Of a DNA stretch of 45,426 nucleotides, positions 3,656-10,276 are shown in pieces (the stretch's first letter is position 1; each line of letters opens with the position of its first letter). This stretch comes from Allobrachymonas sp. (lineage in GTDB: Bacteria > Pseudomonadota > Gammaproteobacteria > Burkholderiales > Burkholderiaceae_C), in NCBI GenBank assembly GCA_030529505.1, contig JAUMWT010000014.1:1-45426 (forward strand), read 5' to 3'. The translations under genes and the position numbers were made by a program. The notes beneath the pieces were generated by a model, which searched no databases, was not told where the DNA came from, and saw only the letters and a list, made by a program, of their open reading frames with translations.

Positions 3656-4786
3656 TTACTGCTGCTCCTTCTGCCGCCGCGCCAGCACCGCGTCCGACAA
3701 GGTGTGCAGCAGTTGCGCGGTTTCGTCCCAGCCCAGGCAGGCGTCGGTGATGCTTTTGCCGTATTCCAATTGCCGGGGGTTGTCTTGGCCGGGGGTGAAT
3801 TTCTGCGCGCCGCCGTGGATGTGGCTTTCGATCATCACGCCGAAGATGGCGTGCGAGCCAGCAGCCAGCTGTTCGGCAATGGCCTGGGCCACTTCGGGCT
3901 GGCGTTCGGCCGTTTTGTAGCTGTTGGCATGGCTGCAATCGACCATGACGCTGGCGCGCAGGCCGGCCGCTTCCAGCGCGGCGCAGGCGGCTTGCACACT
4001 TTGCGCGTCGTAATTGGGCGCTTTGCCGCCACGCAAAATCACGTGGCAGTCGTGATTGCCCTTGGTGGCGACGATGGCCACTTGCCCATTCTTGTGCACA
4101 GATAAAAAGTGGTGCCCGCGCGCGGCGGCCTGAATGGCGTCGGTGGCGATGCGGATGTTGCCATCGGTGCCGTTTTTGAAGCCGATGGGCGCGGACATGC
4201 CACTGGCCAGCTCGCGGTGCACCTGGCTTTCGGTGGTGCGCGCGCCGATGGCGCCCCAGCTGATGAGGTCGCCCACGTATTGGGGCGAGATCACGTCCAG
4301 AAATTCCGTGCCCGCGGGCAGGCCCATGCGGTTGATGTCGATGAGCAGTTGGCGGGCGATGCGCAGGCCCTCGTCGATGCGGCAGCTTTCATCCAGATAG
4401 GGGTCGTTGATGAGGCCCTTCCAGCCCACGGTGGTGCGGGGTTTTTCAAAGTACACGCGCATGACGATTTCAAGCGTGTTGCGGTATTGCTCGCGCAGTT
4501 TCACCAGGCGCTGGGCGTAATCGATGGCGGCTGCAGGATCGTGAATGGAGCACGGCCCGACGATGGCAAGCAGCCGATCGTCCAGCCCGTGGATGATGCG
4601 CTGGATGGCCTGGCGCGTTTGCCCCACCAGCGCTTCGACCGGCGAGCCGTTGATGGGAAAGAAGCGGATCAGGTGCTCGGGCGGCGGCAGCACGGTGAGG
4701 CTTTGGATGCGGTTGTTGTCGGTCTGGCTGGTTTTGTCTTCGGGCTGGGCGTACCAGGCGTTATCGAGCGTGGATTGGGGGGACAT
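3656..4786 (-). CDS. aroG: 3-deoxy-7-phosphoheptulonate (DAHP) synthase, class I AroG type
   Basis: A 376-residue cytoplasmic enzyme that condenses phosphoenolpyruvate and erythrose 4-phosphate, the first step of the shikimate pathway. Visible motifs are GPCSIHD (77-83), RVYFEKPRTTVGWKG (110-124), LRGG (251-254), VDCSHANS (282-289), ESHIHGG (320-326) and SITDAC (345-350). The metal ligands of E. coli AroG correspond to Cys79, His285, Glu320 and Asp348, and all are present. It is about 25 residues longer than E. coli AroG at the N-terminus; the class is usually feedback-regulated by Phe or Tyr. The start MSPQSTLDN has AAGGAAT upstream as ribosome binding site. About 170 bases upstream on the same strand lie a Phe-rich leader peptide and a terminator hairpin, implying control by phenylalanine supply. 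Confidence 0.95.
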   Translation of the reverse strand: MSPQSTLDNAWYAQPEDKTSQTDNNRIQSLTVLPPPEHLIRFFPINGSPVEALVGQTRQAIQRIIHGLDDRLLAIVGPCSIHDPAAAIDYAQRLVKLREQYRNTLEIVMRVYFEKPRTTVGWKGLINDPYLDESCRIDEGLRIARQLLIDINRMGLPAGTEFLDVISPQYVGDLISWGAIGARTTESQVHRELASGMSAPIGFKNGTDGNIRIATDAIQAAARGHHFLSVHKNGQVAIVATKGNHDCHVILRGGKAPNYDAQSVQAACAALEAAGLRASVMVDCSHANSYKTAERQPEVAQAIAEQLAAGSHAIFGVMIESHIHGGAQKFTPGQDNPRQLEYGKSITDACLGWDETAQLLHTLSDAVLARRQKEQQ

Positions 4787-4897
4787 GGTGGCAATTCCTT
4801 CAAACGGTTCAGCGATTCAAAGCAACGATTGCAGCAACGGAGTCAATCAACAAGCCGGGCCTGCGGTTGTGCTCATGGCCCAAACAGGCGCGCGGGC

Positions 4898-4931
4898 AAA
4901 AAAAAACCGCCGGGCGATGTCCTCGGCGGTT
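4898..4931 (-). terminator. intrinsic terminator in the aroG leader (attenuator)
   Basis: On the minus strand, AACCGCCG (4931-4924), an 11-base loop and CGGCGGTT (4912-4905) run directly into a tract of nine or more U. It lies between the leader peptide stop (4958) and the aroG start codon (4786), so it must be read through for aroG expression. That is the position expected of an attenuator. Confidence 0.85.
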
Positions 4932-4957
4932 TGTCAGTATGGCGTTTCGTGATGTGC

Positions 4958-5026
4958 TCAAGCCTCCTGCCCACCGGGGACGGGATGAAAGGCAAAGCCA
5001 AAAAAGAAAACGCCAGAAACTTGCAT
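4958..5026 (-). CDS. phenylalanine-rich leader peptide of aroG
   Basis: A 22-codon open frame that starts at ATG 5026-5024 and stops at TGA 4960-4958. Residues 7-13 read FFFGFAF, giving five Phe codons in seven. The stop codon lies 27 bases before the terminator stem. Phe-rich leader peptides followed by a terminator control pheA and pheST in enterobacteria, where stalling at Phe codons prevents terminator formation. Here the downstream gene is a DAHP synthase. A 1:2 type hairpin can form between TGGCGTTTTC (5015-5006) over the Phe codons and GAAACGCCA (4948-4940). No Shine-Dalgarno sequence precedes the ATG. Confidence 0.8.
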   Translation of the reverse strand: MQVSGVFFFGFAFHPVPGGQEA

Positions 5027-5033
5027 GGGCGCG

Positions 5034-5043
5034 AATATACCAC
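5034..5043 (-). promoter_or_regulatory. extended -10 promoter of the aroG leader
   Basis: On the minus strand TGGTATATT (TG at 5042-5041, hexamer TATATT at 5039-5034) forms an extended -10 element. No good -35 lies at the right distance. A start site seven or so bases downstream would fall on or next to the A of the leader peptide ATG at 5026. Confidence 0.55.
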
Positions 5044-5378
5044 GCTTGCCTTCGTTGGATGACAGAAGATGACTTTTGCAGGCAGACTTGAAGCGTTGTG
5101 CGCGATCCGCTTGGCAGGCGCTGTTGCGAAGCGTTGATGCAGACGTGAACGCAATCCTTGAAGCGAACGTTGATGCAAAGGCCCTTGCGCATGGCTCACG
5201 CCGCGCATGCACAGGGCCGCGCGCCTTGCCCGAGTGCGACGGTGCGCCGTGAACAGGTCTCGTGATCTGGGCCGCGTGCATCTATCTGGCGTGGCAACCC
5301 AGGCCCTGCTGCAAGGCCGAGGCGTTTGCTGCGCCAAGCCCCATGCGCTGCCTGTTGATGGCCTGGCTGCTTCGCCCG
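5044..5378. other. intergenic region, no gene seen
   Basis: Lies between the aroG leader promoter and the HAD phosphatase gene, both on the minus strand. A short local repetition (GTTGATGCA near 5132 and 5169) is present but too small to classify. Confidence 0.45.
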
Positions 5379-6101
5379 TCAACCATGCTGCAGCAGCCAC
5401 TGCTGCAAATCGGCAATGGATGGGGCCACATGCAGCGGGCGAAGGGCGGTCAGGCCCGAGGCATCGTGCGCGCCGTAGGTGACGGCCACGGCCGGGCAGG
5501 CGGCGTTGTGCGCCATGAGCAGATCGTGCGTGGTGTCGCCCACCATCAGGGTTTGCACGGGCGCGGTGTTGAAGGTGTCCATCAACTCGTTGAGCATGAG
5601 CGGATCGGGCTTGCTCGCGGTTTGGTCGGCCGTGCGCGTGGCATCGAACACATGGCGCAGATCGACCGCATCCAGCGCCTCGTTCAAGCCGCAGTGGCTT
5701 TTGCCGGTGGCAATGGCGAGCAGGTGGCCGCGCGCCTTCAGGGTCATGAGCATCTCGCGCGCGCCGTCGAACAGGGTGATGTCGTGCTGCAGCTGGCGGT
5801 ATTGCTCGCGATAGGCCTGGGCCAGCAGCGGCAGGCGGTGCGAGGGGATGTCTGGCGCAACCGTTTCCAGCGCCTGTTGCAGGCTCAGGCCGATGACGTG
5901 GCGCGCCGCTTCGCTGCTGGGCGGGGTGCCGCCCATTTCGGCCACGGCGGCTTGCAGGCTGCGCACGATGTTGCCGGCCGAGTCGAACAGGGTGCCGTCC
6001 CAATCGAAAACGATGAGCGGATAGCGCAAGGCCACGTAGTTGGGCGTGGCCAGGGTGCTGGAAGTGATTGGTGGCAGGGTCATCGATTCTTCATCCCTCA
6101 A
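5379..6101 (-). CDS. HAD-family phosphatase, phosphoglycolate phosphatase-like
   Basis: A 240-residue HAD hydrolase of subfamily IA. Motif I is DWDGTLFDS (Asp33 nucleophile, Asp35 acid/base), then a helical cap domain (about 45-110), motif II AIATGKS, motif III Lys in SKPDPLML, and motif IV VGDTTHDLLMA with the metal-binding aspartates. The pattern resembles Gph and related sugar-phosphate or nucleotide phosphatases. The substrate cannot be fixed from motifs. The first ATG (MRDEES) and the one at MTLPP are both possible starts; motif I then lies 33 or 27 residues in. It is a single gene, on the same strand as aroG but about 335 bases upstream of its promoter. Confidence 0.85.
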   Translation of the reverse strand: MRDEESMTLPPITSSTLATPNYVALRYPLIVFDWDGTLFDSAGNIVRSLQAAVAEMGGTPPSSEAARHVIGLSLQQALETVAPDIPSHRLPLLAQAYREQYRQLQHDITLFDGAREMLMTLKARGHLLAIATGKSHCGLNEALDAVDLRHVFDATRTADQTASKPDPLMLNELMDTFNTAPVQTLMVGDTTHDLLMAHNAACPAVAVTYGAHDASGLTALRPLHVAPSIADLQQWLLQHG

Positions 6102-6181: not shown

Positions 6182-6531
6182 AGAGCCTGTTCAAAATCTC
6201 AACGCAAGGCGCCTGGCTATCGCAAGGCTTGAATCAGGACGCAGAAGGCGCAGAGCTTTCGCCAAAGCCGCAGAAGTTTTCAAAGCTGTTTTCACCGCAA
6301 AGGCACAGAGGGCGCAGAGCTCTTTTGATGTCTCTGCGTGACGTGAGCGCATCGCAGCATGGCCAACAAATGAGGCACGGAAGCAGCCGTTCTTGGCGAG
6401 CCAACTTCTGTGCCCTCTGCGTGGCTTCTGCGCCTCCTTTGCGGTTTCCGCGCCCACCCAGCCCTTCGATTGACCCCAGGCCGCTCATCTCCATCTTCAA
6501 GCGCCCGCAAGGAGCTTGTGGATCAGCCTCT
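6182..6531. repeat. expanded copy of the AGAACCTGTT inverted-repeat element
   Basis: The left end (6182-6200, AGAGCCTGTTCAAAATCTC, followed by AACGCAAGGCG) matches one terminus of the dispersed element. The right end (about 6493-6531, TTCAAGCGCCCGCAAGGAGC and then CAGCCTCT) matches the other terminus in inverted orientation. The copy is about 350 bp instead of about 165 because its middle holds GCAGAG-type repeats. Its right edge touches the stop codon of the outer-membrane factor gene (6531-6533). Confidence 0.65.
6236..6455. repeat. GCAGAG/CACAGAG repeat block, copy 1 (inverted arrangement)
   Basis: Units such as GACGCAGAAGGCGCAGAG and CCGCAAAGGCACAGAGGGC run on the plus strand at 6236-6325. 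The complementary form (TTCTGTGCCCTCTGCGTGG, TTCTGCGCCTCCTTTGCGG) runs at 6405-6450, so the block is roughly palindromic. A 20-plus base core (6261-6288, centred on CGCAGAAGTTTTCAAA) recurs in opposite orientation at 20125-20151. Confidence 0.7.
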
Positions 6532-8267
6532 CAGCGCGCAGCGCCAGATGCAGAAGGCGAAGGTGCGGCAGCCGCAAGCACAGCAGGCCCTGCCGCAGAT
6601 GTTGCAGGCATGGGCGCAGGGGCTTGTGCAGGCTGGACTGGCGCAACGGTGGCTGCCTTGGCGTTTGCATTTGCAGCGCCGCGCTCGGGCTTGCCGCCAT
6701 TCAAGGCATCGGCATCAGCTGCGGCAGGCGAACTCGCCACATCGGGCAGCACAGGGCTGCCGCCCAGCGCTTGCACCAGGGCGACGTGGTTTTGCAGGCG
6801 AGCCAGGTTGGCTTCTTGCTCGGCCAAGGCGGCGTTGCGCAGGGCCTCTTGCGCATCCAGCCAATGCTTCAGCGAAATGGCCCCGGCGCGGTAACGCACG
6901 GCCGTGAGCTGTTCGGCCCGCTTGGCTTGCGCATGTGCCTGCTGCTGGTACTGCCACTGCTGTTGCAGGTGCTGGCGGGCGCTCAGGGCGTTTTCCACCT
7001 CGGCCAGGGCCTTGTGCAAGGTCTGGCGAAAGTGGATCACGGCCAGCTCGTAGTTGTTGCGCGAGGTTTGCAGATTGCGCTGCATCTCGCCCACGTTCAA
7101 AAACGGCAGGGCCACGCCCAGCCCCAGGCTCAGCGTCGGGTGGCTCAACACGTTTTTGAGCACGGTGCTGGCGCTGCCCATGCTGCTGGTGAGGCTGAAG
7201 CCCGGCAGGTAGCTGGCACGCACCGCATCGCCTTGCGCCAGGGTGGCGCGCAGGCGCAGCTCGGCGGCTTGCAGATCGGGGCGGCGGCCCAGCACATCGG
7301 CCGGTACGCCCGCTGCCACGGCCGGCATGGCGGCCAGGGGCGGCAGTTGCGGCTGGCGGGCCGCTTCGCGCAGCGCGGGCCATTGATCCATCTGATCCAA
7401 ATGGCCCGGCGGCAGATCAAACAGGATCGCCAGCGCGTGCTGCAATTCGCTGCGCTGCTGCGCGATTTGCTCGGCCGCAGCCTGCTGGCGCGCCAGGGTT
7501 TGGCGGGCCTGCGCCAGATCCAGCCCCGAGATGGCGCCAGCCTCGTATTGCACCTGCGCCAGTTGCAGCGTTTTTTGGGCGCGCAGCAGGCTGTCTTGCT
7601 GGGTGCGCCATTTCTGCTCGGCCACGGCCAGCCGCCAGTAGGTGCCCAGCACGTTGGCGACCAGGGCTTGCGCGGTGGCTTGCCGGTCTTGCCAGGTGGC
7701 GGCGGCCTCCCAATCGGCGGCGCGGTGCTGGCCGGCGAGCTTGCCCCACAAATCCAGTTCCCAATTGATGCCGACGCTGGCGCTGTAGCGGCGCTGCCAG
7801 TCGGTATCCGTTGTGCCGCCTACGGGGCCAGAGGCATCCTGCTTCAAGTCGCGGCTGGCGCTGGCCGAGCCGCTGGCGTTGAGTGTGGGCAAGCGCTTGC
7901 CCCAGGCGTTGCCCGCAGCCAGGCGGGCATTGCGCAAGCGCCAGCCCGCCGCGCGCAGATCGTTGTTGCGCGCCAGGGCCAGCTCCACCAGTTCATTGAG
8001 CTGTGCATCGCCAAAGGCGGCCCACCAGCGGTCTTGCAAAGTGTGTTGCACGATGCGCGCATCAGTCGCGCCACCAGCGGGGTCTGCGGCCTTGGCCCCA
8101 TGCGCCCATCGCGCGGGCAGTTGCAGATCAGGCCGCTGATAGGGCGTGTGGCACGCGCCCAGCAAGGCCGCGCACAGCAGCGCAGCGGCCGACAAACGAA
8201 TGCGACGAAATCGGCCCGAGCCAGCCAAGTGGGCGCGGACACCGGTGGAGCTGATGGTGGGGGTCAT
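6531..8267 (-). CDS. outer-membrane efflux lipoprotein, NodT/TolC family
   Basis: A 578-residue outer-membrane factor. The signal peptide ends in lipobox LLGAC with lipidated Cys39, typical of the NodT/OprM branch of TolC-like channels. Two OEP repeats follow with the usual coiled-coil helices (for example LVELALARNNDLRAA, then LGLGVALPFLNVGEMQRNLQTSRNNYELAVIHFRQ abbreviated here to its GVALPFLN core) and the GRRPDLQAAE motif near the middle. The last 80 residues are Ala-rich and of low complexity, beyond the usual end of the family. It is the third gene of a macA-macB-like operon, 29 bases after the transporter gene, and would form the exit duct for that pump. The gene ends exactly at a repeat element, so its tail may have been altered by that insertion. 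Confidence 0.9.
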   Translation of the reverse strand: MTPTISSTGVRAHLAGSGRFRRIRLSAAALLCAALLGACHTPYQRPDLQLPARWAHGAKAADPAGGATDARIVQHTLQDRWWAAFGDAQLNELVELALARNNDLRAAGWRLRNARLAAGNAWGKRLPTLNASGSASASRDLKQDASGPVGGTTDTDWQRRYSASVGINWELDLWGKLAGQHRAADWEAAATWQDRQATAQALVANVLGTYWRLAVAEQKWRTQQDSLLRAQKTLQLAQVQYEAGAISGLDLAQARQTLARQQAAAEQIAQQRSELQHALAILFDLPPGHLDQMDQWPALREAARQPQLPPLAAMPAVAAGVPADVLGRRPDLQAAELRLRATLAQGDAVRASYLPGFSLTSSMGSASTVLKNVLSHPTLSLGLGVALPFLNVGEMQRNLQTSRNNYELAVIHFRQTLHKALAEVENALSARQHLQQQWQYQQQAHAQAKRAEQLTAVRYRAGAISLKHWLDAQEALRNAALAEQEANLARLQNHVALVQALGGSPVLPDVASSPAAADADALNGGKPERGAANANAKAATVAPVQPAQAPAPMPATSAAGPAVLAAAAPSPSASGAAR

Positions 8268-8296
8268 GATGATGGGCAGGGTTCTTTCGCGCGCCG

Positions 8297-10276
8297 CTAT
8301 TGGCGCGTGAGGGCATCCACGGGATTGAGGCGGGCGGCGCGGCGCGCGGGCAAAAAGCCGAACAGCATGCCGATGAGCGAAGAGCAGGCAAAGGCCGCGA
8401 TGATGGACGCCAGCGAAAACTGCATGCTGAAGGCGCCGCCGCTGGCGTAATCAAACACCCAGCCGATGAACAGGGCCAGCGCCACACCCAGAATGCCGCC
8501 GATGCAGCAGACCAGCACCGATTCGATCAGGAACTGCTGCAGGATGTCGCCCTGGCGCGCGCCCACGGCCATGCGCACGCCAATCTCCTGCGTGCGTTCG
8601 GTCACCGAGACCAGCATGATGTTCATCACGCCAATGCCGCCCACCACCAGCGAGATCACGGCAATGGACGAGATCAGCAGCGTGAGGGTTCGCGTGGTTT
8701 TTTCCACCGTTTGCCGAACGCTGTCGGTGCTGATGGTGAAAAAGTCCTGCTTGCCGTGGCGCTGCACCAGCAGCCGGGTGATGCCCTGCTCGGCCGCGGC
8801 ACTGTCCACCTCGTCGCTCACGCGCACGGTGATGCTGCGCAAATGGCTGCTGCCCATGATGCGGCCCATGACCGTGGTGTAGGGCAGCCAGAGGTTGAGC
8901 GCATCCGAGGGGCCATAGGCCTGGTCTTTTGGCTGCGTCACGCCAATCACGCGCACGGGCACCATGCCCACGAGGATGATCTGGCCGATGGGGTTTTCAT
9001 TCTCGGAAAAAAAAGCTTCGCGCATGCCGGCGTCGATCACCGCATCCTGCATCTGGCGCTGGATGCTTTCCTGGTCGAAGAACACGCCTTCGGCCAGCTC
9101 GTAGCCGCGCGCGCGAAAGTATTGCTCGCTCACGCCGCTGACGGTGGCCGTTTTTTCGACATTGCCACGGCGCAGGGTTTGCGAGGTGTTGGCGTTGGGC
9201 GAAACGCTGTCCACGTAAGAAAGCTGCTCCAGCGCGCGCGCATCGGCCGGCACCAGGGTGCGGATGCGCCCGGCCGTGCGGTCGCCAAAGCCGCTGCCGG
9301 GCAGCACCTCGATGGTGTTGGTGCCCATGCTGTTGATGTCGGCCAGAATCTTCTGGCGCGAGCCTTCGCCCAGCGCCACCACCGAGACCACCGAGGCAAT
9401 GCCGATGATGATGCCCAGCATGGTCAGCAGCGTGCGCAGCTTGTGCCCGATCATGGCGCGCACGGCCATGCGCGCGGCTTCGCCCAAGCGGCCCCAGGCT
9501 GCGGCCCAGGTGTTTTTTTGCGCGGGCGCAGGCTCTGCCTTGGCCACTGGCGGGCAGGCGCCGTCGCGGGTCTGGTTGGCCACGATGCGGCCATCGCGAA
9601 TTTCGATGATGCGGTTGGCATGGGCCGCCACCTGGGCATCGTGCGTGACGAGGATGATGGTGTGTCCGCTGGCGTGCAGCTCTTTGAGGATGTTCATCAC
9701 CTCATGTCCGCTGGCCTGGTCGAGCGCGCCGGTGGGCTCGTCGGCCAGGATCACGTCGCCCCCGTTCATGAGGGCACGCGCAATCGACACGCGCTGCTGC
9801 TGCCCGCCCGAGAGTTGCCCGGGCTTGTTGCCCAGCCGCTCACCCAGGCCCAGCCGCGTCAACAGCTGCTCGGCCCGCGCATGCCGTTGCGCGGCGGGCA
9901 AGCCGGCGTAGATGGCCGGAATTTCGGCATTGCCCACGGCCCCCAAATCACCCATGAGGTGGTAGCGCTGGAAGATGAAGCCGAAGTGCTCGCGCCGCAG
10001 GCGGGCCAGTTCGTCGGGCAGCATCTGGCCCGTTTCCTTGCCCGCCACCTGGTAGCTGCCGCGCGTGGGGCGATCCAGGCAACCCAGAATGTTCATCAGC
10101 GTGGATTTGCCCGAACCCGACGGCCCGATGATGGCGACCATTTCACCGGCGCGAATGTCCAGATCCACGTCTTTGAGCACGGCCACCACCTCGTCGCCGG
10201 CGGGGTATTCGCGCACCACGCCGCGCAGACGCAGCAGCGGCACGTCGTTGGCAGAAAGGGGGGTGGCTTGTTGCAT
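8297..10276 (-). CDS. macB: MacB-type ABC transporter (ATPase-permease fusion)
   Basis: A 659-residue inner-membrane protein. The N-terminal ATPase has Walker [10 protein letters not shown] (51-59), signature [15 protein letters not shown], Walker [13 protein letters not shown] and H-loop VTHD. A first membrane helix follows ([24 protein letters not shown]), then a periplasmic MacB_PCD domain and three C-terminal helices of the FtsX fold. This is the full MacB architecture. MacB couples ATP hydrolysis to export of substrates from the periplasm through a MacA-TolC duct; known substrates include macrolides, heme precursors and peptides or siderophores. The related PvdT exports pyoverdine. The substrate here cannot be predicted. 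The macA-like gene lies 33 bases upstream and the outer-membrane factor 29 bases downstream. Confidence 0.95.

Follow-up and report, generated by a model that had tools for sequence, protein, structure and literature searches.

The aroG locus and its leader region

The window, which is the whole stretch of 45,426 nt analyzed here from Allobrachymonas sp., contains the gene aroG together with a putative leader region, and the features of this region are collected in Table 1. The aroG product scores 525.1 bits against TIGR00034 (cut-off 173.2), and its relatives in the PDB include the Phe-regulated DAHP synthase of Escherichia coli. The gene starts with an ATG at 4786 that is preceded by GAAGGA. 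Upstream of it, on the same strand, lies a short leader ORF with five Phe control codons (residues 7, 8, 9, 11, and 13), which give the peptide the core FFFGFAF. The leader ORF is followed by a terminator that closes with a run of nine T at 4906-4898, and 111 nt separate the end of the terminator from the start of aroG. The distance from the TGA of the leader, given as 27 in a preliminary description of this DNA, is 25 nt when measured to the stem AAACCGCCG/CGGCGGTTT and 28 nt when measured to the G+C part of the stem.

Table 1. Features of the aroG leader region in the window
Feature	Position	Strand	Description	Basis
Extended -10 element	5034-5042	minus	TGG-TATATT; last base 7 nt before leader ATG	sequence
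Leader ORF	5026-4958	minus	MQVSGVFFFGFAFHPVPGGQEA; 22 codons, ATG at 5026, in-frame	read from sequence
Segments 1:2 hairpin	4962-4993	minus	3' half of ORF; GCCUUU...GGAGGC, inner CCCGUC/GGUGGG	fold
Segment 2	4971-4981	minus	GUCCCCGGUGG; antiterminator 5' arm	duplex with segment 3
Leader stop	4960-4958	minus	TGA	read from sequence
Segment 3	4919-4929	minus	CCGCCGAGGAC; common to antiterminator and terminator	duplex and fold
Intrinsic terminator, segments 3:4	4898-4932	minus	AAACCGCCG...CGGCGGUUU and nine U	fold, shuffles
aroG	3656-4786	minus	type I DAHP synthase, 376 aa; gene under proposed control	NCBIfam TIGR00034

A second GC hairpin with a T-run is found right after aroG (3626-3599, minus strand; AAAAACGCCCC-AGTGAT-GGGGCGTTTTT), and aroG is therefore probably transcribed alone. 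Elsewhere in the window, at 6531-10276 of the minus strand, ORFs are present that by eye resemble an outer membrane efflux protein and a MacB-type ABC transporter.

Upstream of the leader, the same strand carries a HAD-type phosphatase gene with its end at 5379, and a lone terminator serving this gene, with an ORF standing before it by chance, would look alike. We regard this explanation as scarcely credible. A script run over both strands of the whole window found the aroG leader as the sole ORF with at least 5/9 aromatic residues and a T-run, and an aromatic ORF of this kind with a T-run appeared in 13/3000 dinucleotide shuffles of a 480-nt stretch surrounding the upstream region of aroG. 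The stronger argument that the leader is real is conservation, rather than this estimate of chance. The family retains the aromatic leader ORF ahead of aroG, and this conservation rules out a chance ORF before a terminator.

Conservation and distribution of the leader

A comparison with relatives, the check proposed in the preliminary description, found both the leader frame and its Phe codons to be conserved. Together with direct reading of the sequence, this conservation bears out the Phe-rich leader of 22 codons and the terminator with nine U ahead of aroG. Using a threshold of at least 4/9 aromatic residues, an upstream script returned an aromatic ORF in 106/130 oriented loci, a count in which L112 and L130 look spurious and L106 has an odd frame. 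Where the upstream region of a family locus could be read, the leader was found in 33/33 oriented loci and in a 34th, G008. The script group f1 comprises L001-L032, L042, and L051-L095 and is not a checked taxonomic list. Outside the family, an upstream scan for at least 5/9 aromatic residues located the leader in 22/80 loci of the order and 1/40 loci of the class.

A covariance model built from 70 leaders (R1) was searched blind through whole genomes. The model matches 194/200 genomes of the family (175/178 of the good ones), 28/120 of the order, and 4/132 of the class. The four class matches consist of two from the window's own family, a true leader before aroG (G363), and one false match, on a plain terminator (G420). 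Among the matches listed, those of the family that are comparable with AroG positions, a set that leaves out one further family genome (G023), adjoin aroG in 26/26 cases with a gap of 30-112 nt, and those of the order lie just upstream of aroG in 28/28 cases with a gap of 22-124 nt. The window's own genome contains one copy above threshold, the best of the remaining, sub-threshold matches having an E of 0.287. A plasmid search with a 23-aa leader peptide, a short query and thus weak evidence, gave no match.

In the six family genomes that lack an R1 match, AroG matches do not exceed 63% identity. Two of these genomes (G086 and G191) have no AroG match at all, two (G074 and G105) have a partial match only, G196 has only a 55% relative, and G124 (L251) has a full-length relative of 61% identity that comes immediately after another gene and is without a leader. 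The second DAHP synthase, a set of paralogs 54-60% identical to that of the window (L047-L049 and L252-L255, L047 being G000:C95:97420-98463), had no aromatic leader in 7/7 upstream regions scanned. Likewise, no leader was seen upstream of aroG in Polynucleobacter (L067, L073, L078) and two Cupriavidus (L081, L085), in which AroG is 71-73% identical to that of the window. By these counts, the predicted aroG leader is widespread in the order and is not universal.

The typical leader core is AFYFYFWFSVPGGREA in Comamonadaceae, KFYFYFFWHLKPLADREG in Burkholderia and Caballeronia, and FFFTGYFYFSNSNPKAVE in Massilia and Rugamonas. In Polynucleobacter, another gene immediately precedes aroG. A leader is also found beyond the order of the window, in G363, where RFYRWYYFPKPPAEEG stands before aroG (L238/L264; R1 match G363:C33:188725-188855).

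Promoter and predicted leaderless start

A promoter scan of the window region found no two-hexamer promoter. The leader ORF of the window is preceded by an extended -10 element (Table 1) and has no Shine-Dalgarno sequence. In the Comamonadaceae-type group, a -10 box (TAnnnT, at least 4/6 matches) ends 6-9 nt before the ATG in 67/69 unique leaders, 38 of which have it at 7 nt. A TGn extension precedes the box in 64 of these 69 leaders, and a Shine-Dalgarno-like motif occurs in 0/69. By the usual spacing between a -10 box and the first transcribed base, the RNA would begin at the leader ATG or right beside it. The position of the box and the missing Shine-Dalgarno motif imply that the RNA 5' end in this group is at or next to the ATG, which suggests that the Comamonadaceae-type leader ORFs are leaderless, as predicted from the box position. 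Among the other 53 leaders, a box located 4-12 nt upstream of the ATG was found in 13 and no such box in 40; the leaderless trait is therefore not general.

Terminator, antiterminator, and hairpins

The terminator folds with -17.6 kcal/mol (z -4.47), which was equaled by 0/200 shuffles, and a terminator scan listed 4898-4932 as the only terminator-like site there. Segments 2 and 3 form a duplex of 10 pairs and one mismatch, which is contained in the MFE structure of 4985-4917. The antiterminator had been called weak, but GUCCCCGGUGG/CCGCCGAGGAC is strong, with -19.5 kcal/mol as compared to a shuffled mean of -11.8 and 0/200 shuffles equal. A pause hairpin had also been drawn from 5015-5006 with 4948-4940. 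This pairing is present in the full-length MFE structure of the window, but relatives conserve a hairpin that is set further inward, where the ORF ends. In the window, the 1:2 hairpin does no better than shuffles (66/200 equal; 65/100 in a second run). The drawn pause hairpin joins the first leader codons to the spacer downstream of the stop, a pairing that has a group mean of -13.1 versus -10.5 for shuffles (n = 69); in the window 10/100 shuffles equal it, and L004, L005, and L009 show nothing.

No known Rfam element was matched, be it a Phe, Trp, or other amino acid leader, a T-box, or a riboswitch, and the Rfam Phe leader family in particular gave no match to the window leader or its relatives. 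A search of window positions 4700-5300 returned only one sub-threshold match, on the other strand (E 0.15), and a search of 16 relatives returned two matches to sRNA families, far below their gathering scores.

Across relatives, the antiterminator duplex has a group mean of -16.7 in Comamonadaceae-type leaders versus -12.9 when shuffled (n = 69), and of -16.4 versus -11.7 in the other leaders (n = 53). A leader's own antiterminator partners beat partners swapped between leaders (-16.5 versus -15.5, p 4e-4). For single leaders, the duplex is matched by at most 10/200 shuffles in 26/69 and 27/53 leaders only, and that of L003 is poor, with 156/200 shuffles equal. With 116/122 leaders used, the positions flanking the 2:3 core covary across lineages at +1 and +3 (0/2000 shuffles each), and positions +2 and +4 are weaker (50/2000 and 188/2000 shuffles, respectively), +4 not being convincing. 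In L042 and L028, a change in segment 3 (CCGCT) is accompanied by a change in segment 2 (AGCGG). The leaders are related to one another, and shuffles therefore overstate significance.

Within the 70-row alignment, the 2:3 helix showed no covariation beyond shuffles, 193/500 of which reach its score, and the covariation score of the 1:2+3:4 structure was reached by 313/500 shuffles. Two-sided changes were counted in 5 pairs and 9 cells when the structure was slid by -2 and in 4 pairs and 5 cells of the 1:2+3:4 structure as named, while the proportion of cells that pair is 41.6% in the former versus 95.3% in the latter. A column-wise covariation scan of alignment A1, which leaves out L006 (chosen start GTG) and duplicates, was set aside as mostly phylogenetic noise.

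The 1:2 hairpin of the relatives, with a group mean of -12.2 versus -11.0 for shuffles, keeps TTCTC/GAGAG in 51/70 and pairs in 93.4% of cells. The last Phe codon, which is located in segment 1, is TTC in 57/62 cases as compared to 60/246 for the other Phe codons, a bias whose p-value is only a guide since the sequences are related. Where ATC or CTC takes the place of the last TTC, TCTC is still kept. The TTC bias at this codon marks an apparent constraint on the RNA, not on the peptide.

Arrest peptides commonly contain aromatic residues, and the core AFYFYFWFSVPGGRE recurs among the leaders, as would be expected if the nascent peptide itself, and not the speed of decoding, stalled the ribosome upon an aromatic metabolite. 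However, the synonymous bias points to the RNA, and the C-terminal part of the peptide is variable. In L012 (1267-1400) and L066 (964-1096), a one-base deletion after TTCTC alters the rest of the peptide and GGCGG..GAGAG is kept, while in seven leaders (L010, L013, L015, L057, L069, L070, and L084) an early stop (GG-stop) shortens the leader and the RNA segments stay. Peptide ends that are variable, frameshifted, or shortened next to RNA segments that are kept speak for a mechanism based on RNA structure and the speed of decoding rather than for an arrest peptide, which we consider highly improbable.

Control codons

Control codons were tallied in 122 unique leaders, chosen by at least 5/9 aromatic residues and a T-run; the set leaves out leaders with 4/9 aromatic residues (e.g., L063) or without a T-run. 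In this set, chosen for its aromatic content, codons for Phe, Tyr, and Trp occur together in 94/122 leaders, Phe and Tyr in 25/122, Phe and Trp in 1/122, and Phe alone in 2/122, namely the window and L138. Counted by any occurrence, Phe is present in 122/122 leaders, Tyr in 119/122, and Trp in 95/122. The earlier designation of a Phe-dependent attenuator is correct in that Phe control codons precede a DAHP synthase gene, but it describes the species of the window and not the system.

Within the genus, the leader core is FYFWFAF in L002, FYFGFWF in L003, L004, L005, and L009, and FYFGFTF, with Tyr kept, in G008. Tyr and Trp are both retained by L002 as well as by the G002, G003, G005, and G006 leaders, and the TTT and GGC of the window correspond to TAT and TGG in L002. 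Since Tyr and Trp codons are found in most leaders and in the genus, the Phe-only state of the window leader, which rests on a single metagenome-like assembly that is 83.5% complete (G000), is by this comparison local and derived. The design of the leader family looks trivalent (Phe, Tyr, and Trp) and narrowed in the window lineage.

It could instead be that Phe-specific attenuation is ancestral and general, with only tRNA-Phe being sensed and the Tyr and Trp codons of the relatives being incidental. This would agree with the Phe-only leader of the window, with the occurrence of Phe in every unique leader ahead of Tyr and Trp, and with the F-Y-F leader of Corynebacterium glutamicum, which according to a review answers to Phe and not to Tyr (PMC11802643). 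Yet Trp, a rare residue, is present in 64/69 Comamonadaceae-type leaders, and TGG occupies one alignment position, directly before segment 1, in 60/70. Unless Trp sensing has been under selection, such recurrence is difficult to account for, and we find a general, Phe-specific attenuator unlikely.

Proposed mechanism

Sequence comparison establishes the ORF, its aromatic codons, the terminator, a complementary antiterminator, and the linkage to aroG. The region has what is expected of an attenuator, which is a leader ORF with codons for a product of the pathway, a terminator between this ORF and the gene, and an antiterminator that is located partly in the ORF and is incompatible with the terminator. 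Control of aroG by a ribosome-mediated transcription attenuator is very probable. In our proposed mechanism, transcription would begin at or next to the leader ATG, and the ribosome would translate the leader from a leaderless mRNA. With charged tRNA in good supply, it would reach the stop codon and mask segment 2, and segments 3:4 would fold into the terminator. Upon a stall at the aromatic codons, the ribosome would mask segment 1, and segment 2 would be free to pair with segment 3. The 2:3 pairing would prevent the terminator from forming, and aroG would be transcribed.

Because the family leaders mostly carry Phe, Tyr, and Trp codons, a shortage of any one of these amino acids would open the first shikimate step in the case of a typical leader. 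The window leader, with Phe codons only, should respond to Phe alone. We consider it moderately probable that Burkholderiales govern the shikimate entry step through a single trivalent attenuator. Acting on a leaderless mRNA, this attenuator would monitor how far tRNA-Phe, tRNA-Tyr, and tRNA-Trp are charged and would serve as an OR gate for the three end products. The lineage of the window would then have been narrowed to Phe by the loss of Tyr and Trp codons, and would be an example from nature of a metabolic sensor whose specificity has shifted through codon replacement.

The attenuator could have an additional role in trans, exerted by the terminated RNA of ∼130 nt (a small leaderless mRNA) or by its peptide, as reported for rnTrpL/peTrpL of Sinorhizobium. 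The same anatomy, a terminated leader that starts at the ATG, is described in Sinorhizobium meliloti (PMC7298713). However, the sequence evidence points to no target and the peptide ends are not conserved, and we take an added role in trans to be improbable.

Comparison with known systems

The ilvGMEDA attenuator of E. coli is multivalent for Ile, Val, and Leu. The aroG leader family resembles it in that a single leader combines codons for more than one end product of a branching pathway, which for ilvGMEDA is the branched-chain and not the aromatic one. Neshat reportedly described the aroR leader of aroF in C. glutamicum in 2014. In the accounts consulted, this leader (Phe-Tyr-Phe) precedes aroF, a DAHP synthase gene, and is an aromatic leader peptide that acts by ribosome-mediated attenuation induced by Phe limitation (PMC11802643, PMC4046766). 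Compared by description only, aroR differs from the window system in that it is actinobacterial, has no Trp in its motif as described, and is reported to be unaffected by Tyr (PMC11802643, PMC4046766). The Acholeplasma uORFC-13-1 motif upstream of aroF is similar as well, being a uORF with Phe and a terminator before a DAHP synthase gene; as described, it differs in that it belongs to another phylum, has 24 representatives and an RBS, and contains at least one Phe codon (PMC8632094). Attenuation at the entry step, which the preliminary description called a different wiring, thus has two precedents.

The enterobacterial pheA (pheL) and pheST attenuators, as reviewed, share runs of Phe codons and the terminator/antiterminator logic but act on the synthetase or on the branch that leads to Phe instead of on the shared entry step, and respond to Phe only (PMC11802643). 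The trpL/rnTrpL system of S. meliloti, in the source cited, is leaderless in the same sense, its attenuator RNA beginning with the leader ATG, but it reads Trp only and controls trpE(G) (PMC7298713). A proposed Tyr attenuator of aroF is listed under Shewanella and goes back to work in E. coli. In the open PMC papers covered here, we met with no account of an aroG leader in betaproteobacteria.

Significance

The interest of the aroG leader family lies in what looks like a trivalent, leaderless design and in the local narrowing to Phe. If the proposed reading is true, a large part of the sampled Burkholderiales would govern aromatic flux by translation of a leader and not by TyrR/TrpR repressors as in E. 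coli. The leaders would form a natural series (FYW, FY, and F) in which the sensed amino acids can be read from the sequence, and the leaderless design would take the initiation signal out of the switch. The aroG leader would also provide a ready-made sensor for engineering laboratory strains of Comamonadaceae.
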